This document shows, piece after piece, positions 7,875-55,827 of a DNA stretch of 57,506 bases. The position numbers and the translations under genes were made by a program. Source of the stretch: a virus; the IMG/VR virus record IMGVR_UViG_3300032322_001172, positions 1 to 57,506 of that record; one strand, written 5' to 3'. How positions within the stretch are numbered: position 1 is the stretch's first letter; each line of letters opens with the position of its first letter. Under the pieces are notes generated by a model. It saw only the letters and a program-made list of their open reading frames with translations, was not told the DNA's origin and searched no databases.

Positions 7875-9710
7875 TTATAATATCACCGATTCAATCAATT
7901 TAATTCCTGTGTCATCGCTCGATTCTAATGCTATTGCAAATACATCAGCGAATTGATGGAATGAAGCATGTACCGCGCAGCCATTATCTGAAGCTACTAA
8001 TCGATCTCCCTTCTTTATACTACCTACTACTTTGACTGGTACACGACCTTTCAAAGCTACTGCTTGACCTTCTGCTTCGCTATTCATTAGATAGGCTGGT
8101 TTTTCTGATATAGCACCGATAGCACGATCACCAAATACAGATGCACGAACTTCTTTTTCACCGCCTACTGTAACTACTGTACCTACAGAATAATAAGTAT
8201 CTGTATTGTATATCTCTGCTAAGTCAGCGTATCTTGCTGCTGTAGCTGTTCCTTGGAATAAATTAGCTGTTATGTTACCGCCAGAGTCTCTAGCAGCTAT
8301 TGTATTAGCTGTTGCTGTTAGAGCAGTAGATCTGTATTCGGTTCCAACTAATAATTGATCAGATTTTTCTGCTATTCCTTTAAAAATTCTTGCTGTGATA
8401 TCGCCATTAGGATCTCTAATAGGAACTGAGGATTTATCTCCTAGTTCTGTAATACCGTCTTCAGCTAATGGAAATCCTATCGATGGTTTATAAACTGTTA
8501 ATCTATCAGCTGTAGTCGATGAGTTAGCGGATCCTGTACAATCTCCTTGCAATGTTCCAATAATACTTGCACCGGTGTAACCGATAGTTTTAGTACTACC
8601 GTCGATCACTACTGTACCGTCGTCTGTTTGGTAAGTACCTTTGAATATTGTGATAGGCTGAGATACATCAACTACCGGCGAAGTTGGAGTAGCTGAATTT
8701 AGATTTAAAACAACTCCAGATAAAGAGCCGTAAAATCTATCGGCATAGACATTTCTCCAAATAATTGTTTCTGTTCCGATATCGTATTGATTCGTTTCTC
8801 CAGGTTCTATACTGATTCTTCGAATCTTTAATACACTTCTAGGAGTAAGGCCACCCTCTGTGATTCTAAAGGTAATGTCGTTGCCTAATCTATTTTCAAA
8901 AACTAAATTTTCATTGTTTTCAACACGAACTCGTAGGTCGTTGTCGTTGCCTAATGTAAATCCAGAATCTCTAAAACTAACTTCTTGCTCAAAACTTTGA
9001 TTTCCTTTCTGTAGGAAATTAGTAGCAGGAACACCTCCTAAGAAATCAGCATTTCTAGCTGTTCCCCAGAATCTATGATTAGTTGTAGTAATTCCTGATT
9101 CAGACGAAATTAATGTGATACCTTGTTTTATTAGAGTAAAGTCTGTAGGTGATTCAGGATTTAAAGGATTTAATACTGTATTAAGAGTAAAATCTTCAGA
9201 AGCTCCACTTACTACTGCTATGGTTCTTCCGTTGGATACAAACTTAGCAATGGTTCTAGAAACATTGTTTATGTCTTTTACAGTCTGAGGAATAACTGCC
9301 GAGGTTGATAAGTCGGGACCGGTCTCCGGACCCACTAATACATAATCAGCTCCAGACCAAACATAGACCTGTTTGGCAGTAGAATCGTACCATAAATCGC
9401 CTACTTGCAATCCTGACGGTGCAGTAGAACTTACTTCAGCACCGCTGGCAGTTCTAAATTTAGTTCCGTCATAAAACTTGAGTTTTTTTACACCTGGTGT
9501 ACTATCAAACCATAGTTGACCGGATACTGCTTTTGGAGGAGGGCTTGTATTAGCAAAATTTTCTAATAAATGCAGGAAGTTTTCGTTTTGAGTTTCGCCG
9601 TATCCTGCGTAATTTTTTCCGATTAACCGTAAATCTGAAGTAGTATCTACAGTTCCATCTTCAATTGATGTAAAAAATGTTCCGTTATATCGATCAACCT
9701 GATAGGCCAT
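7875..9710 (-). CDS. tail fibre-like structural protein, paralogue 4 of 4
   Basis: This 611-residue protein is the last-transcribed member of four tandem paralogues. The first roughly 130 residues carry the family signature: DGT.DT..DL.L.GKNYAGYGE.qNENF.hLLENFAN, a vsGQLWFD motif, and a second GDLWYDST motif ending in LVGPE. The middle is variable and beta-rich. The C-terminal part has an ARYADLAEIY motif, then PAYLMN, then a GRVPVKVVGSIKKGD motif, a module shared with the neighbouring 708-residue paralogue. The GGAG in its leader is a plausible ribosome-binding site, and a late-promoter-like box lies 22 bases before the ATG. This type is known as a virion structural protein in T4-like phages of aquatic hosts. 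The exact placement on the tail is not known. Confidence 0.75.
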   Translation of the reverse strand: MAYQVDRYNGTFFTSIEDGTVDTTSDLRLIGKNYAGYGETQNENFLHLLENFANTSPPPKAVSGQLWFDSTPGVKKLKFYDGTKFRTASGAEVSSTAPSGLQVGDLWYDSTAKQVYVWSGADYVLVGPETGPDLSTSAVIPQTVKDINNVSRTIAKFVSNGRTIAVVSGASEDFTLNTVLNPLNPESPTDFTLIKQGITLISSESGITTTNHRFWGTARNADFLGGVPATNFLQKGNQSFEQEVSFRDSGFTLGNDNDLRVRVENNENLVFENRLGNDITFRITEGGLTPRSVLKIRRISIEPGETNQYDIGTETIIWRNVYADRFYGSLSGVVLNLNSATPTSPVVDVSQPITIFKGTYQTDDGTVVIDGSTKTIGYTGASIIGTLQGDCTGSANSSTTADRLTVYKPSIGFPLAEDGITELGDKSSVPIRDPNGDITARIFKGIAEKSDQLLVGTEYRSTALTATANTIAARDSGGNITANLFQGTATAARYADLAEIYNTDTYYSVGTVVTVGGEKEVRASVFGDRAIGAISEKPAYLMNSEAEGQAVALKGRVPVKVVGSIKKGDRLVASDNGCAVHASFHQFADVFAIALESSDDTGIKLIESVIL

Positions 9711-9732
9711 TATCTTGCTCCATTAATTCATA

Positions 9733-9740
9733 TATTTACC
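9733..9740 (-). promoter_or_regulatory. putative late promoter box (GGTAAATA)
   Basis: This is a TAAATA-core box in the 44-base gap, 22 bases before the ATG of the 611-residue fibre gene. The same GGTAAATA variant occurs before gp6 at 34712-34719. Two of eight positions differ from TATAAATA. Confidence 0.4.
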
Positions 9741-9754
9741 GTTTTATCGATATA

Positions 9755-11881
9755 TTATAAACGCCCTACTACAACCTCTATAATGCCTTCGGAACCTTCG
9801 AAATCTTGCAGAGCTTTACCGATAACTGTGCCTAATTTAGGATCTAAAGTAGGTCTAGCGTATCCATCGCCGCCACTAACTAGCATATCTCCTTTGCGAA
9901 TTTTTCCACGGACTTTACAAGGTACTCTGCCCTGTAGAGCTATTGCTACAACATGTTTTCCTTGTAGTGTGCTATTCATTAAATATGCAGGAAGAGTAGA
10001 AACTATACCTGCTACTCTGCGAGTTTCGTCTTCTGCTAAAGTTACTTCAAATTCACCGCCGAACTCTAAAACTGTTCCAGGAAGATATTCATTATCTGCT
10101 TGATAATTTTCAGCTAAGTCTGCATATCTAGCAGACGTTGCAGTTCCTTCAAAAAGTCCAGTAGTAAAAATACTGCTCGAACCCATGTCCAATGGCTTAT
10201 TCATAGTCCACTTATCGCCGGATACAGAATATAATAAAGATGCATTCGCAGCATCGACTAAAATACCTGCACCATCGGCTGCGGCTGCGCTTACACTTCC
10301 GCTGGCAATAGTTAAAGTTTTATCTTTTACTATTGTTTCTGTAGTATTGATAGCTAACACACTACCTTGTACTGTTAGATCTCCAGTGACTACTAGACTA
10401 CCATTAAGGGTAGTTGTTGTTCCTGACATCGGAGTTATTGAATCCGAATATACCGAACTGGAGTAAGTTTCATTTGTATAGAATTTATTCCATCTTCTGG
10501 AAAACATTCCTAAATTTACTTCGCCTGCACCTTCTTTAGTTAAAGTCGGAATCGATTCTCCTCCTAGATCAGAAGCTATAGTAGAAGGCAAAAATCTAAT
10601 TCTAGGATTAGGATTAATATAGGATGTATCTGTAAGTTCAATATCAATTGATCTTCCAGTTATTTGTGATTTAAAATAAGGATTAGAAGATCTAAATCCT
10701 ATTTTAATGTCATCGCCATCGCCGATAACAACGCCGGCACTGGCTACTGAAAGATCTAATAGTTTTCCTACTTGAACTAGCGAAGAAGATAAAACATTAT
10801 TTGCTAAAAAATTTCCAGTTAACGTAGTTGCACTAGCACCAACAGTAATATTTCGTGTACCGTCAAAATCTACACCATTAATCTGTCTTGCTGTTTCTAA
10901 TTTTGTAGCAGATCCTGCATTACCAGTTAGACTGGCGCCAATAAATTTTGCAGCTCGTACTTCATTGAAAGTACTAAATCCGGTAGTAATCTGCACATTA
11001 CCAACAACATTACCTACTAAGTTAGCAGTTATTTGGTTAGCTCTAAAATTACCTATAGTGTCTCTAGCTACAATCGATCCGTTGACGACATCTGAAGATG
11101 CATTGATCGACCATGTAGTATTGCCGGCACCATTAAAATTGTCTCCTAGTATATAATCACCGCGAATTAAAGAGCCGGGAGTAGTCGCAGTAATAGTAAT
11201 ATTGCTGCTACCGTCAAATCCAACACCATTTATAGTTCTTTTTGTTTCTAATTTTGTTGCTGTTTCTGCATTGCCTTTAAGCGGACCGTGAAAAAATACC
11301 TGACTATTAAGGGTAACTCCGTTGTAAATCTTAGTGAAACCTGAAATGATATTTTCTGTGGCCGGTGTGAATTCTCGTCCAGATATAATAGCAATGGGTG
11401 TTCCGTCAATTGTCAATTGTACTATTGGATTATCAACAGATTCTGTGTCTTTTATAACTACAGTTTTAGCTTTAGTTTCTCCGAATCCAGGAGCTACTTC
11501 CGGAGCTATGGCTTTCCACTCTTGACCATTATATAAATTCAATACTCCCAAGTCGGTTCTATACCAAAGCGAACCCGGAGCCGGAGTTTCAGGGGCTGTT
11601 GCCGAAACTGCTGAAGCACCTACTAATACCCATTTCTTTTCGGAATCGTATACATATACTAAATTCAATTCAGAATTGAACCATAGCTGTCCTGATACGG
11701 GTCCTCGAGGTGGTTTATTGTTGGCAAAGTTTTCTAGAAGATAAACGAAATTTTCATTTTGAATTTCGCCGTAGCCAACATAGTTTCTTCCTACTAAGGA
11801 TAAACTAGTAGTAGTATCTAAAGTCCCATCTTCTAATACTACTAACTCTTGACCATTGTATCTGTTTATAATGTATGGCAT
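9755..11881 (-). CDS. tail fibre-like structural protein, paralogue 3 of 4
   Basis: This 708-residue protein has the family N-terminus (LVGRNYVGYGEIQNENF, ENFANN, vsGQLWFNSE, GSLWYRTDLG). It has internal repeats of the type ETATKLETKRTINGV/ETARQINGVDFDG followed by a DGS/DGTRNIT motif, common in phage fibres. The C-terminal module matches the 611-residue neighbour (SARYADLAENY, PAYLMN, GRVPCKVRGKIRKGD). A clear AGGAG lies just before the ATG. The module resembles the C-terminal chaperone or processing regions of some phage fibres, but I see no convincing catalytic motif, so cleavage is not claimed. Confidence 0.75.
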   Translation of the reverse strand: MPYIINRYNGQELVVLEDGTLDTTTSLSLVGRNYVGYGEIQNENFVYLLENFANNKPPRGPVSGQLWFNSELNLVYVYDSEKKWVLVGASAVSATAPETPAPGSLWYRTDLGVLNLYNGQEWKAIAPEVAPGFGETKAKTVVIKDTESVDNPIVQLTIDGTPIAIISGREFTPATENIISGFTKIYNGVTLNSQVFFHGPLKGNAETATKLETKRTINGVGFDGSSNITITATTPGSLIRGDYILGDNFNGAGNTTWSINASSDVVNGSIVARDTIGNFRANQITANLVGNVVGNVQITTGFSTFNEVRAAKFIGASLTGNAGSATKLETARQINGVDFDGTRNITVGASATTLTGNFLANNVLSSSLVQVGKLLDLSVASAGVVIGDGDDIKIGFRSSNPYFKSQITGRSIDIELTDTSYINPNPRIRFLPSTIASDLGGESIPTLTKEGAGEVNLGMFSRRWNKFYTNETYSSSVYSDSITPMSGTTTTLNGSLVVTGDLTVQGSVLAINTTETIVKDKTLTIASGSVSAAAADGAGILVDAANASLLYSVSGDKWTMNKPLDMGSSSIFTTGLFEGTATSARYADLAENYQADNEYLPGTVLEFGGEFEVTLAEDETRRVAGIVSTLPAYLMNSTLQGKHVVAIALQGRVPCKVRGKIRKGDMLVSGGDGYARPTLDPKLGTVIGKALQDFEGSEGIIEVVVGRL

Positions 11882-11902
11882 TTTTTGCTCCTACCTATCC
11901 AA

Positions 11903-13864
11903 TTATGGTGGTAATAATGTATCTGAAATATGTGACCAAGCTCCTCCAGAAATTTGAAATCTTTTAATAACTCTAGTAAGACTAATACTTGGTGCTGAAA
12001 CTGTTGCTACGCCGATAGACGAATTAATTACAGCTGGGCCTGTTCCTGTTGGGGTATTAAATGTTCCGAATGTGAGTCCAGCGGATAATAACGGATTTAA
12101 ATCAAGACTAGTTGTAGAATTACTTGCAATAGTACATAAAATTGTAGCCCTGGTTCCGTTTCTATATCTTGGTGTTCTATTTCTAGCTGTTGCTGTATTG
12201 GGGTCTTCTGCCAATCCTTGATCTAGATAAAGAGGCGCGGTTCCGCCTGGACCATTTAAAATATTTTGAATAATGTAGTTGTTAGGCTTACCATCAGAAA
12301 GATCCATACTAAAAACTATCTCTCGAGTTTCTATGGTATCATCAACATATTCTTTAGTAGCTGCATCTTGTGCGCTGGTAGGATCAGCTAATCCTGTTAT
12401 TTTAGGACTACCGATTAATGCAATATTTCCTGTTCCGTTTGGTGCTAATTCTATGTTGCCGTTAAAATTTAATGATGATAATCTGTTACCATCTAAAAAT
12501 AAATTGTCTACTGTAAATTCATTCTGAATACCAAACACACTAAGACCGTTAGCTTGTGTTACAGCATTTGTTAATCTAAATGTACTGCCAATTTGTTCGA
12601 GCAGAGGTATTCCGTCAATAGCATAGTATTTTCCGTTAGATAGATTAATACTTTCAGTACTGTTCCACGAACCACTCATTAATGCCGGTAATGCATCATT
12701 ATATCCTTCAGCGATAGCTTCGGGAGAATTAGATGTGGCTGCTTGACCGAGACTTGACCAAACAAATGCATGTGATGTTGCACCTTGTAAAATTATTCCG
12801 CCTGTATCTGCATTTACATCTGTAGGAGTAACACCAGTTTGTTTAGCTAGAATAATATTTTTATCTTCCACTATTAAAGTTGAAGCATTTATTGTCACTG
12901 CATTACCCTGAACGGTTAGGTCTCCAGCAATCGTAACCGATCCACCGATTCTAACCTGACTCGAAGAAAATAACGGACTGTCATATATTCCTACTGTTCT
13001 AGATGATGCATCAATTAATAAAGCATTTTCTAAGTTAATACCTCTACGAGCAGCTAAACTTAATGTCTTAGAATCAGCATTATTAGAAATAGTAACATTA
13101 CTGTTCGATATACGGATGTTACATTGGTCACTCGAGCCTATGTCAACACCGAGGTCTGTTTTAACTTTAAAAGTTCCAGAAACTTCGTTGGCTGTATCTT
13201 TTCTAAGATATGTAGTTGCCGGTGTATTTCCTAAGTTCTCAGAATTAGTAGCTGTAACATTAAATTTATAAGTTGATAACGGTGTATCGCTTGCAGCATT
13301 AAATCCGGGATTAATAACTCCCGAATAACCAACAATTGGAATTTTAGGAGTAAAGCTATCTTTTGAGAAAATTCCTAATAAAACTCCACTATTGTATAAT
13401 AATGTTATAACTCGTGTTTGGTTCAATGTATCGAGCAAAGTCTTTACCTGAAATCCGCTCAGTCCCTGACTAGTGGAATAGGAAGGTCCTAATAAAATTG
13501 ACTGAGTGCCATCATAAAAATATAACTGCTTGTCAGTATTGTTGAACCATAGATCGCCAGTACCTAATGTAGTTGGCTGTGTGCCTGATATTGTTGCCGA
13601 ACTTACAGGAAGAAATTCAGTACCACTATAAACTTTTAATTTCAATTCAGTTGTATCAAACCATAACTGTCCTCTAATAGGTCTAGTCGGTTTAACAGTG
13701 CTGGCAAAATTTTCTAGTAGCTTGATAAAATTTTCATTAAGAGATTCACCGAATCCGCTGTAATTTCTACCTATCAAAGTTAAATCGGTACTGAGTGTAT
13801 CAATTTGTCCGTCTGGGACTGTTGATACTATGGTTCCGTCTGTTTTATTAATTTGATATGTCAT
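11903..13864 (-). CDS. tail fibre-like structural protein, paralogue 2 of 4
   Basis: This 653-residue protein has the family N-terminus (LIGRNYSGFGESLNENF, ENFAST, irGQLWFDT, GDLWFNNTDKQLYFYDG, LLGPS). The middle carries a VTIAGDLTVQGNAVTIN motif, which the 708-residue paralogue shares as a GDLTVQGS-type sequence. It also has a GLADPTSAQDAATKEYVDD motif around residue 510, which recurs in long tail fibres of many myophages. Its C-terminus differs from both neighbours and has neither the PAYLMN/GRVP module nor a collar domain. The set therefore looks like a common attachment head with exchanged tails. Confidence 0.75.
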   Translation of the reverse strand: MTYQINKTDGTIVSTVPDGQIDTLSTDLTLIGRNYSGFGESLNENFIKLLENFASTVKPTRPIRGQLWFDTTELKLKVYSGTEFLPVSSATISGTQPTTLGTGDLWFNNTDKQLYFYDGTQSILLGPSYSTSQGLSGFQVKTLLDTLNQTRVITLLYNSGVLLGIFSKDSFTPKIPIVGYSGVINPGFNAASDTPLSTYKFNVTATNSENLGNTPATTYLRKDTANEVSGTFKVKTDLGVDIGSSDQCNIRISNSNVTISNNADSKTLSLAARRGINLENALLIDASSRTVGIYDSPLFSSSQVRIGGSVTIAGDLTVQGNAVTINASTLIVEDKNIILAKQTGVTPTDVNADTGGIILQGATSHAFVWSSLGQAATSNSPEAIAEGYNDALPALMSGSWNSTESINLSNGKYYAIDGIPLLEQIGSTFRLTNAVTQANGLSVFGIQNEFTVDNLFLDGNRLSSLNFNGNIELAPNGTGNIALIGSPKITGLADPTSAQDAATKEYVDDTIETREIVFSMDLSDGKPNNYIIQNILNGPGGTAPLYLDQGLAEDPNTATARNRTPRYRNGTRATILCTIASNSTTSLDLNPLLSAGLTFGTFNTPTGTGPAVINSSIGVATVSAPSISLTRVIKRFQISGGAWSHISDTLLPP

Positions 13865-45073: not shown

Positions 45074-45508
45074 GTGCTGTGGACTTATCAAAATCAAATC
45101 GTAGAAGAAATACCCGAAGGCTACATTGGCTTTGTTTATCTTATCACCAATCTACAGACCGGACAGAAGTACATAGGCAAGAAACTAGCACAATTCAAGC
45201 GTACTAAACCACCACTCAAAGGCAAAAAACTTAAAAGAAGAAGCACAGTAGAAAGCGATTGGCGCGATTACTGGGGTTCTTCTGATAGGCTCAACGCAGA
45301 TGTCCAAGCACTAGGTCCGGAAAAATTCACTAGAGAAATACTTTATCTTTGTAAATCCAAGGCAGAAATGTCGTATTTAGAGGCAAGAGAACAGTTTGAA
45401 CGCCGAGTTTTAGAAACAGATGACTATTATAATGGCATTATAAATGTCAGAGTAGGCGGATCAAACATACTTAGACAGCGTCTAGAAGAACATAAAAAGG
45501 CAAAATAA
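45074..45508 (+). CDS. GIY-YIG domain nuclease (SegE-like)
   Basis: This 144-residue protein starts at a GTG immediately after the preceding TGA. The GIY-YIG motifs are GFVYLITN (about residues 16-23) and KYIGKK (about 30-35), followed by SDWRDYWGSS and a conserved FTREILYLC..KAEMSYLEA helix carrying the catalytic-type Glu, then YYNGIINVR. This layout matches the SegE-type putative endonucleases of T4-like phages, which are free-standing homing-endonuclease relatives. No separate DNA-binding domain is obvious. It directly precedes the 507-base non-coding region. Cleavage activity has not been shown for this subgroup as far as I know. Confidence 0.8.
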   Translation: MLWTYQNQIVEEIPEGYIGFVYLITNLQTGQKYIGKKLAQFKRTKPPLKGKKLKRRSTVESDWRDYWGSSDRLNADVQALGPEKFTREILYLCKSKAEMSYLEAREQFERRVLETDDYYNGIINVRVGGSNILRQRLEEHKKAK

Positions 45509-45813
45509 GGCGGTTTTTTGGCTGGCGCAGGCCTTAATTTCTTGCGCTCTATACCTGGTCAATCGTGGTCACAGGGACGGAAATCCACGCCGCAGTGGTA
45601 CTCAGCAACTACCCGTATATGGATGAAGATCGCTTAAAACCTGCGATTTTGCTGTTTGAAAAGGATAAGCAAAGGTAAAATGAGGGGAGAAAAACCCCAC
45701 GGCTACAAGTTGGATAGCGTCAATTTGTAGACCAGCCGTCGTAAAAGACTGAGCTCGAGGTACCGGACGACCGCCTCTGTAATGCTCTAACGCTGTGTGA
45801 CATTGTTCGACTC

Positions 45814-45872
45814 GGATAATGCTACTTGGCCCTTGTCTGGGCTAAGTGTGACGGAACGATCTGGATAATGCT
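45814..45872. repeat. imperfect direct repeat around GGATAATGCT
   Basis: GGATAATGCT occurs exactly at 45814-45823 and 45863-45872, flanking the 9-pair hairpin. Each copy is preceded by a related GTGTGAC (at 45795 and 45846), so the unit is about 49-51 bases long. A related GTAATGCT lies at 45779-45786. The arrangement suggests an internal duplication within the RNA. Confidence 0.6.
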
Positions 45873-45876
45873 TAAA

Positions 45877-45900
45877 TTGCGCTTCGCGCAAAAATTTTTT
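45877..45900 (+). terminator. internal hairpin followed by an A5T6 tract
   Basis: TTGCGC-TTC-GCGCAA forms a 6-pair stem (45877-45891), followed by AAA and six T. It may be a weaker intrinsic terminator within the candidate RNA, or a processing hairpin. The A-tract before the T-run weakens the case. Confidence 0.4.
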
Positions 45901-45957
45901 GCACATCTCGCAAAAAATTAAAAAAGAAAAAAATGCGTTGAGCGTAAGCGAAAACGC

Positions 45958-45979
45958 AAACGAGCGTTAGCTCGTTTTT
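45958..45979 (+). terminator. rho-independent terminator
   Basis: AAACGAGC-GTTA-GCTCGTTT gives an 8-pair perfect stem with a 4-base loop. The T-run finishes at 45979 and is followed by AAATAAATA. It ends transcription of the upstream region just before the late promoter of the next operon. Confidence 0.8.
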
Positions 45980-45980
45980 A

Positions 45981-45988
45981 AATAAATA
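45981..45988 (+). promoter_or_regulatory. putative late promoter box (AATAAATA)
   Basis: Seven of eight bases match TATAAATA. The box starts one base after the terminator and lies 27 bases before the ATG at 46016. The terminator-promoter arrangement separates the internal-protein operon from the genes upstream. Confidence 0.5.
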
Positions 45989-46015
45989 AAAGATAATTCT
46001 GATAAATGAGTTTAA

Positions 46016-47491
46016 ATGAAACTATCCACCTTATCTGATCCCATATTGTTATTAGAGCAACACATGACTCTAAGTGGTTCGATCCTTAGAGAAAGCTGTA
46101 GTGGGCTGACTATTGAGCAGAGAACTGTTGTAGAAGGAATTTATACCGAACTACGACCTTTAATTGAAGCCAGTCTCACAGCACAACAGATACAATCGTT
46201 GTTTGGCGAAATCGAAAAGACAGCCACAGCAGGTGGTGGTAATAGAACACTGATAGGCAAGGGCGTGGATGTTGCCCGTGCCGCAGACGAAACTGTCAAC
46301 AAAATTGGTCGTTGGCTACAGGATACAACACCAGTTAAGAACTTTGATCAAAAGTTCGAAAATCTCAAAAACACCATTAACAAGAAGTTTCCAGATTCTA
46401 AGATACTAGATGCCATTTCTGAAATGGGCATGTGGGCAGAACGCAATCCTGGCAAGACTGCTGCCATAGTAGGTGTACTTACTGCCATTGCTGGCCTAGC
46501 TGGCGGTCCCATTGGAGGTGCCATTGCTGGTCAGATACTTAGAGGTTCTGTAGAACTGCTCAAAGGTGAAAAACTATCCACTGCCATAGGCAAAGGTATT
46601 AAGACTGCGGCCTATGGCTTCATTGCAGGAAAAACTTTTGAGCTGATCGGTGATGCACTCAGCAGCGGCGCACAGTTGGTCAAAGATACCATGTTCCCGG
46701 GTGCTGTAAGATTGAATATGACACAGATATTTAATGAAGTGGGCGGAGAGATGGGCAGCAGATATGCTGCATTTGAAGTCAAAGGTTTGATTATCAAACC
46801 CGAAGATGCTGCTGATGTCAAGACCTTGTTCAACGATGCTGCTTCTGCATGGAAAGCCGGCGACTATGATCAAAGCGCCAAGGTATGGTCAGCACTCAAC
46901 GACTACATTGAAGGCACACTTAAGAGTCCAGAGTATGTGGCACAGATTGCCGCTGATGCCGACAAGCGACAGATAATCACTCAGGCGGCCAGTGCTGCTC
47001 AACAGGTATTCAAGTTCCTTGGTGCTGCTGCACAAGGTGCTGTGGCTGCTGGCGGAGTTAAAGGATCTTTGGACAAAGGCAAAAAAGAAAGTTATTATCT
47101 ACAGACTAGGCCACTCAGCGAAGGACAGGTTTACCTGCTGTTCAAACGCATCGACGAAGGTGCCATGGATTGGATCAAAACCAAAGCAGGTAACCTTGCC
47201 AATAAGATCACTGTAGACAAACTCAACACTGCATGGAACAACGCAGGCAATCCCACAGATGCTGACGATCTTTACAATGTACTCACTGGTGCTGGCAATG
47301 TACCAGATGATATAGTTGCACAGGCTTACAAGAGTATGAAGATTCCCTATACAGGTGCTCCTGGCGAGCCTCCTGCAGATGGCGGTGCACCGGCGGATAT
47401 CAAAACAGTAATACAAATGGTAGAAAAATTGCCTAAATCTAGAAAGCAGAGACTGCTAAAATACATGGAAAAACAACTAGGGGTAGCCTAA
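46016..47491 (+). CDS. candidate internal/ejected capsid protein with glycine-zipper segment
   Basis: This is a 491-residue protein of no family I recognise. The N-terminus has LLE at 12-14 and, near 20-27, GSILRES. LRE-S fits the T4 prohead protease rule (I/L)-X-E before a small residue. Residues about 140-185 form a hydrophobic Gly/Ala segment (TAAIVGVLTAIAGLAGGPIG and continuing) flanked by charged helices, like the membrane-active zippers of ejected virion proteins. The C-terminus (about 461-491) is a VIQMVEKLPKSRKQRLLKYM helix pair, closely matched inside the next gene. It heads a three-gene operon behind its own late-promoter box. A virion protein delivered with the DNA is inferred. A plain tail protein is the alternative. 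Confidence 0.6.
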   Translation: MKLSTLSDPILLLEQHMTLSGSILRESCSGLTIEQRTVVEGIYTELRPLIEASLTAQQIQSLFGEIEKTATAGGGNRTLIGKGVDVARAADETVNKIGRWLQDTTPVKNFDQKFENLKNTINKKFPDSKILDAISEMGMWAERNPGKTAAIVGVLTAIAGLAGGPIGGAIAGQILRGSVELLKGEKLSTAIGKGIKTAAYGFIAGKTFELIGDALSSGAQLVKDTMFPGAVRLNMTQIFNEVGGEMGSRYAAFEVKGLIIKPEDAADVKTLFNDAASAWKAGDYDQSAKVWSALNDYIEGTLKSPEYVAQIAADADKRQIITQAASAAQQVFKFLGAAAQGAVAAGGVKGSLDKGKKESYYLQTRPLSEGQVYLLFKRIDEGAMDWIKTKAGNLANKITVDKLNTAWNNAGNPTDADDLYNVLTGAGNVPDDIVAQAYKSMKIPYTGAPGEPPADGGAPADIKTVIQMVEKLPKSRKQRLLKYMEKQLGVA

Positions 47492-54965: not shown

Positions 54966-55211
54966 ATGCTTCTAAAAGAATTTTTTTATTTTAGCGATAA
55001 AAACAATGACTTTGCTACGGATCGCAGGTACGATGCCGGCAGAGATCAATCTGTGGTCAAAAAAGAAGATACTCGAAAAATAAGGCTGACACTCCGCCAA
55101 ATTAATCAACTAAGACTAGCTGCTGAAGCGCATGAGGTCGAACAGCAATCAGAGCTAGATTTTATTAGACAAATGTACGGAACTCCAGTTGAAGCCGCAT
55201 CAACCGAATAA
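54966..55211 (+). CDS. small conserved head-operon protein (gp20-gp21 interval)
   Basis: This protein has 81 residues from the ATG at 54966, chosen over an earlier in-frame start that would overlap the portal gene by more than 100 bases. It begins MLLKEFFYFS and has a conserved-looking KIRLTLRQINQLRLAAEAHE helix, then ELDFIRQMYGTP. Similar small genes directly follow gp20 in related phages. Its place corresponds to the T4 gp67/gp68 prohead-core genes, but it lacks their acidic character. There is no clear ribosome-binding site. Coupling to portal translation is likely. An AATAAATA at 54954-54961 is too close to serve it. Confidence 0.65.
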   Translation: MLLKEFFYFSDKNNDFATDRRYDAGRDQSVVKKEDTRKIRLTLRQINQLRLAAEAHEVEQQSELDFIRQMYGTPVEAASTE

Positions 55212-55827
55212 CCCCGCGTTCGTTCTAGGTAACGGAAAAAGCAGATTAACAGTAGATCTAAACTCATTATTAAGTTTAGGCACAGTCTACGGATGTAATG
55301 CTATCTATAGAGAAGTTGATCCCCATTTTCTAATAGCAGTAGATGTAAAAATGATCAACGAAATCATTGCAGCCGGCTATCATAAAACACATTCTGTCTG
55401 GACAAATCCAAATAAAGGTGTCAGCAGTAAAGCACATATAAACTTTTTTAATCCCCATAAAGGCTGGAGTTCCGGACCAACAGCATTATGGTTTGCCTGC
55501 ACTCAAGGACATAAAGAAGTGTATATTTTTGGCTTTGACTACATGGGTCATAATGGCAAATTCAACAATGTGTACGCTGATACCTATAACTATAAAAAGA
55601 GTACAGACACAGCTACATTCTACGGAAATTGGTTAAATCAAACAGAAAAAGTTATTAAAGAATTTAGAAAAATTAAATTCTATAGAGTAATTAATCGAGG
55701 CGATTTTATGCCAGATAAATTGGGACCTTTGTTGCCTAACCTCGAGCATATCACTTATGACGAACTAGCAAAAAAATTTCCAATTATTATATATTCCGCA
55801 GAAAACGATCAAAAAACTACCATTTAA
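55189..55827 (+). CDS. MptE-like/glycosyltransferase-like protein of unknown substrate
   Basis: This protein has 212 residues from a TTG at 55189 that overlaps the preceding gene by 23 bases; the next in-frame ATG is only at residue 55. It has a nucleotide-binding-like FVLGNGKSR (11-19), YGCNAIYRE (34-42), FLIAVDVKM (47-55), a GWSSGPTALWFACTQGHKEV run (92-111) and YIFGFDYMG (112-120). The GNG.S... S(G)PTA....G...i.l.GFD pattern is that of MptE-like/DUF115 proteins and GT42-type sialyltransferases. It could modify capsid or cell-surface glycans. No such gene sits in the T4 head operon, so it is an accessory insertion here. The substrate cannot be read from the sequence. Confidence 0.6.
   Translation: MKPHQPNNPAFVLGNGKSRLTVDLNSLLSLGTVYGCNAIYREVDPHFLIAVDVKMINEIIAAGYHKTHSVWTNPNKGVSSKAHINFFNPHKGWSSGPTALWFACTQGHKEVYIFGFDYMGHNGKFNNVYADTYNYKKSTDTATFYGNWLNQTEKVIKEFRKIKFYRVINRGDFMPDKLGPLLPNLEHITYDELAKKFPIIIYSAENDQKTTI

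Follow-up and report, generated by a model that had tools for sequence, protein, structure and literature searches.

The 507-base gap behind the GIY-YIG gene of a T4-like phage was found to hold a structured RNA gene of about 470 nt (45509..45985, + strand, 5' end unmapped), recognised by an nhmmer profile, its fold z-score and covariation. The RNA occurs in T4-like phages and in a putative mobile element of Burkholderiales. As judged from sequence comparison, it probably acts in trans, as a single RNA shared by these phages and by Burkholderiales islands tuned to them. Only its first third is represented in databases, by an Rfam entry.

Genomic setting and conservation among phages

The window (the whole 57,506-base stretch of a virus record analysed here) carries T4-type genes, and its source is a T4-like phage of lake or freshwater origin. 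Two of its genes are presumably gp47 and gp46, names that we assigned from their sequences and gene order. They are followed by a 2OG-Fe(II) oxygenase gene, a SegE-type GIY-YIG gene (45074..45508, + strand; PF19835, E-value 3.7e-36) lying directly 5' of the RNA, the 507-base gap and structural genes. The gap extends from the GIY-YIG stop codon (45508) to an ATG at 46016. It had been described in a sequence-only reading as gene-free, dense in hairpins and richer in GC than its flanks. The first two points hold: the longest ORFs in the gap are of 39 aa, ruling out a protein-coding role, and 45509-46015 folds at -158.6 kcal/mol compared with -130.9 +/- 5.9 kcal/mol for 100 dinucleotide shuffles (z = -4.7), the native sequence outperforming all 100. 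The GC content of 45509-45880 (0.49; whole window, 0.38) is clearly above that of the upstream flank (0.365), but only slightly above that of the downstream flank (0.459).

BLAST searches of INPHARED phages and PLSDB plasmids gave no match. Vector contamination, considered on account of a SacI/XhoI/KpnI-like string (GAGCTCGAGGTACC), was rejected as the string is mostly conserved across phage relatives, among which the GAGC and GAGG that it contains form strands of a covarying helix. Elsewhere in the window, 55189-55827 encodes a 212-aa protein with a match to phrog_30607 and a weak sialyltransferase-like match.

Related viral loci were retrieved by RNA pattern, GIY-YIG protein or downstream ORF (210 in total). 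The nhmmer profile of the gap matched 192 of them, near full length in 165, and this conservation, together with the covariation described below, bears out the proposal of a non-coding RNA. Among the 80 loci retrieved via GIY-YIG alone, without use of the RNA, 74 possess it; of the six lacking it, four end within 80 nt of the GIY-YIG gene. GIY-YIG locus L209 has a weak 3'-domain match (22.7 bits) at the expected place, and the gap profile detected no RNA in GIY-YIG locus L207. The GIY-YIG gene lies directly 5' of the RNA in 181 of the 192 loci. Eight of the other 11 begin too near a contig end, the gene is farther off in L041 and L048, and it was not found in L088. A deviant 5' start (CGCCAAAAAAGCCCGCACCGGCGA...) of the phage RNA, apparently a second type of 5' domain, was observed in L122, L132, L138, L141, L144, L146, L160, L165, L183 and L191.

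The Rfam family and the extent of the RNA

The 5' domain (45520..45657, + strand) is Rfam family RF01718 (Polynucleobacter-1), comprising helices P1-P5; it matches the full model (positions 1-141) with 99 bits against a gathering cut-off of 37. The earlier statement that no known RNA family was recognisable is consequently wrong for the first third of the RNA; the Rfam search that it suggested recovered this match, which it had missed along with two pseudoknots. The end of the family at position 141 was not upheld, with conservation and covariation running on to a terminator at 45977; at ~470 nt against 141 positions, the RNA has roughly three times the length of the entry. This bears on how far the entry reaches and leaves membership of the family untouched. 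A model of the 3' domain scores the window, itself part of the training set, at 126 bits; RNAalifold gave just three base pairs for it, so that it works as a sequence profile. The RF01718 motif has been reported from Burkholderiales and from fresh water and estuary (Weinberg et al. 2010, PMC2864571).

Secondary structure and pseudoknots

Covariation was analysed in 76 non-redundant phage sequences using a custom script modelled on R-scape, with a null of substitutions evolved along an inferred tree; E-values are coarse, being based on 30 simulations. The top covarying pairs are mostly Watson-Crick and spread over the full length of the RNA, and slid registers score lower for all helices counted. 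Hairpin P6 (45684..45698; all elements here are on the + strand) is formed by GGGG/CCCC; it is 96% paired, and double changes were seen in 4/4 of its pairs. P7 (45703..45730) is a 10-bp hairpin, 97% paired (25-29% in slid register). It corresponds to the inner part of a 14-pair hairpin that had been proposed at 45699-45739: the inner ten pairs (45703-45712 with 45721-45730) show double changes at 10/10, while the outer four are not conserved.

The loop of P7 holds the 5' strand of pseudoknot PK1 (AUAGCGU, 45714..45720), which pairs with ACGCUGU at 45790..45796 (99% paired in the phage alignment, double changes at 5/7 pairs). Two further helices lie between these strands. S1 pairs GUCGU (45738..45742) with ACGAC (45767..45771) and covaries as C-G/U-A, G-C/A-U and U-A/G-C, a count resting on other phages, the window sequence being aligned out of register there. 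S2 pairs GAGC and GAGG (within 45751..45760) with GCUC at 45784-45787 and CCUC at 45774-45777, respectively (3' strands within 45774..45787), and is 97-100% paired, 5/8 of its pairs showing double changes. As S1 crosses S2, the RNA contains, with PK1, two pseudoknots, both 3' of the RF01718 part.

Three elements of the 3' part noted in the sequence-only reading proved to be real and conserved across phages. These are the nine-pair hairpin P8 (45824..45847; 90% paired), P9 (45934..45958, together with its outer helix), a hairpin with tandem G-A mismatches and a GUAA loop of the GNRA type that is 88% paired and shows double changes in 6/6 of the outer pairs, and the intrinsic terminator hairpin (45958..45977; 96% paired, double changes at 5/8), which is followed by a T run. 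The layout of the 3' domain and terminator is common to phage and bacterial copies of the RNA. In the latter, the counterpart of P9, read by eye, is GUGUGAGCGAGAGCGAUACAC, and PK1 has counterparts in other letters (CCACUUA/UAAGUGG, GCACUUCGG/CCGAAGUGC and UCAAUACA/UGUAUUGA), although the automatic search chose another or shorter word in 9/27 copies.

Concerted motifs R1 and R2

P8 is situated between two motifs, R1 (GACUCGGAUAAU, 45809..45820, + strand) and R2 (GAUCUGGAUAAU, 45858..45869, + strand). Positions 45809, 45814 and 45815 co-vary with 45858, 45863 and 45864, respectively, nearly always as an identical letter (A/A or G/G; G/G or A/A; G/G or C/C). The letter at 45814 equals that at 45863 in 76/76 phage sequences and has weak mutual information with all other columns; 45815 additionally tracks lineage-specific columns. 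No base-pairing partner of either motif was found inside the RNA. Matched pairs are also present in most bacterial copies (AGCGAAA, AUCAAAAG, AGAGAAAG, GGAGAAAG and AACAAAAG). The motif search recovered no matching first motif in L284, L335 and L338, and the alignment shows unmatched motifs in L284 (AGC/UGC) and L335 (AAC/UCC). The natural reading of this sequence pattern is that R1 and R2 are two sites for one external partner.

Bacterial copies and their putative integrative element

Of 186 genomes from a single Burkholderiales genus, which appears to be Polynucleobacter, 19-20 contain RF01718, as do a few other genomes. Examination of 29 Burkholderiales copies showed the full RNA and not just its RF01718 part; these copies are related to each other and counts over them are not independent. 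In all 29, a DUF6641 gene (PF20346) is located 150-240 bp away, divergent from the RNA. Most copies with room have a tyrosine recombinase of ~200 aa (Int200) 0.75-3.4 kb 3' of the RNA; in most of them, p267/p257-like proteins, an AAA protein and also a second recombinase, of ~430 aa (Int430), follow or flank it. The majority of the copies thereby lie inside a putative integrative element, which has two tyrosine recombinases and a patchy presence, with two copies in five genomes. Some of its loci encode ZorC and ZorD (Zorya) or a type II methyltransferase, and some have genes reading as a type III restriction pair; in L290, the Zorya-type ZorC and ZorD genes (8262-13738) stand beside the DUF6641/RNA element. 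The 3'-domain model finds two copies (L325 and L339) that were not used in building it; over 399 sampled genomes of the phylum it gave two matches, both at loci found before. A DNA-pattern search flagged 61 genome contigs, with L245 alone being a real copy.

The AAA protein of the islands has as its best PHROGs match the phage clamp-loader family phrog_168 (3e-21), and resembles cellular DnaX and RFC too. Its matches to ORFs of ~310-327 aa from RNA-bearing phages are better (up to 26.3 bits) than those to the host's other AAA proteins (18.2), though weak in absolute terms. DUF6641 was not found in 18 long viral records, nor p257 in phages, and the predicted fold of DUF6641 (mean pLDDT 80.7) has no PDB match at E <= 0.001. 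DUF6641 genes are also known without a detected RNA (L343, L344 and L282). Those at L343:906-1364 and L344:1061-1525 are on viral contigs of other lineages, so the family is broader than the RNA-bearing element. A distant DUF6641 gene, again with no RNA detected, lies beside a site-specific integrase on Azospirillum plasmid pAB510d (L279). In a midpoint-rooted tree of the RNA, the phage and bacterial groups are separate clades (support 0.95); the sharing hence looks old, with no sign of recent exchange.

Promoter-like boxes

The hexamer TAAATA is found 5' of the RNA in 29/29 bacterial copies and 5' of Int200 in 24/24; for Int200, the antisense count is 0/24 and that of the gene body 2/24. TAAATA also lies beyond DUF6641, on the opposite strand, in 24/29. 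Permuted hexamers are rarer than TAAATA at these sites. Six bacterial copies have ATAAATA and most others CTAAATA. Late promoters of this kind are TATAAATA in T4, NATAAATA in S-PM2 and CTAAATA in the T4-like phage Aeh1 (PMC1524935, PMC2984593). The island boxes resemble these T4-type late promoters and may be active as such.

Boxes of this type are seen in the window phage too: ATAAATA occurs seven times where 27.7 would be expected, a fourfold depletion, and six of the seven are 10-54 nt 5' of a gene. The late-promoter box that had been noticed behind the RNA is indeed present (TAAATAAATA, 45979..45988, + strand, late-promoter-like); it would serve the next ORF. No ATAAATA box was found 5' of the phage RNA in 84 loci, and a TATAAAT inside the GIY-YIG gene of the window, tried as the late promoter of the RNA, is not conserved (6/84). 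The RNA has its own terminator, as had been suggested, but that it is a separate transcription unit is doubtful. With the RNA on the same strand behind gp47, gp46 and GIY-YIG, operon read-through is the simplest reading.

Proposed role of the RNA

In the reading that we prefer, an RNA consisting of the RF01718 5' domain, a pseudoknotted middle, R1 and R2 around P8 and a terminator would be made in freshwater T4-like phages, probably when transcription of the gp47/gp46 recombination-replication operon reads through into it. Within an RNP, R1 and R2 would serve as equivalent sites for binding the same single partner. The location of the island RNAs behind phage-type-looking boxes, in the phage's likely hosts, suggests islands tuned to these phages, and on this genomic evidence the elements probably respond to, or parasitise, T4-like phages. 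They would be induced by infection, and the island's own copy of the RNA would then compete for, or borrow, the common partner in the manner of a satellite, which is the mechanism we favour. The separate RNA clades, the absence of a 5' ATAAATA box from the phage copies and boxes that could suit a host sigma factor count against this model. Tentatively, the RNA might even be a common currency of T4-like phages and a T4-late-induced satellite family, with matched motifs in both copies, deciding replication, packaging or interference through a co-evolving partner.

It is conceivable, if somewhat unlikely, that the islands are ordinary integrative elements with a host-sigma promoter before the RNA, linked to T4-like phages by an old shared RNA alone. 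The separate clades and scattered presence (19-20/186 genomes of one genus) agree with this, and AT-rich boxes arise by chance too. However, two or three corresponding sites consistently bear TAAATA even in L291 and L293 (62-64% GC), where ~0.7 per 10 kb would be expected, TATAAT is absent 5' of the RNA and of Int200 in element copies, and a clamp-loader-like ATPase is present.

A cis-acting role, as the 3' UTR of the GIY-YIG/gp46 operon or the 5' leader of the next gene, is unlikely. It would account for the position directly 3' of GIY-YIG in 181/192 loci, and RF01718 is scored 'y' in the cis-regulatory column of the table of Weinberg et al. (2010), as we read it (PMC2864571). Against it, the RNA is ended by its own terminator ahead of the next ORF, and that ORF has a separate late-type box; the RNA does not adjoin GIY-YIG in L041, L048 and L088; it is much larger than a typical leader; and in bacteria it is intergenic, divergent from DUF6641 and 0.75-3.4 kb from the recombinase.

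We consider it improbable that the tyrosine recombinase uses the RNA as a guide or cofactor, R1 and R2 denoting two DNA sites that have a core in common, even though the motifs change identically, like a bispecific guide, and the element has two recombinases: T4-like phages keep the RNA with no adjoining recombinase, and the motif cores mostly occur once per fetched element stretch and nowhere else, for which reason they were also rejected as attachment cores. That the RNA is what remains of a group I intron or homing element beside the GIY-YIG endonuclease, which has a weak, below-cut-off intron-endonuclease match, is scarcely credible, as no intron family was found at Rfam thresholds and bacterial copies exist without GIY-YIG; coding gene (ORFs <=39 aa), known intron and vector (GAGCTCGAGGTACC being conserved) are all dismissed as origins of the region.

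Comparison with known systems

The window region matches the full RF01718 model at 99 bits, and that family is likewise seen in Burkholderiales and fresh water. The ~470-nt RNA differs from the 141-position entry in having two pseudoknots, concerted motifs and a terminator, and it is at home in T4-like phages and in a putative mobile element. What Rfam lists as a short orphan would become part of a large, pseudoknotted RNA that occurs naturally in two settings and has, in DUF6641, a candidate protein neighbour; the concerted motifs make the question of its partner directly testable. GOLLD and ROOL are also large structured phage RNAs of unknown function (PMC12286853). The RNA described here is smaller and is shared with DUF6641 elements; the GOLLD and ROOL models gave no match to the region at gathering thresholds or at E up to 10, and, in contrast with these RNAs, a tRNA scan of the window found none.

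Tycheposons, as presented in the available part of their description (PMC10872708), are similarly tyrosine-recombinase integrative elements of aquatic bacteria that carry cargo; that part does not mention the RNA or DUF6641, and a tRNA was found in just 3/20 Burkholderiales element loci scanned. PLE of ICP1, the PICMIs of vibriophages and similar phage satellites are integrative elements with an integrase, as the Burkholderiales element probably is, and for PLE and ICP1, phage-triggered transcription and abundant ncRNA are known (PMC7567579). The Burkholderiales element differs in holding DUF6641, the RNA, two tyrosine recombinases and a clamp-loader-like ATPase. It may represent a family of satellites of T4-like phages that resides in freshwater bacteria and has defence genes as cargo.
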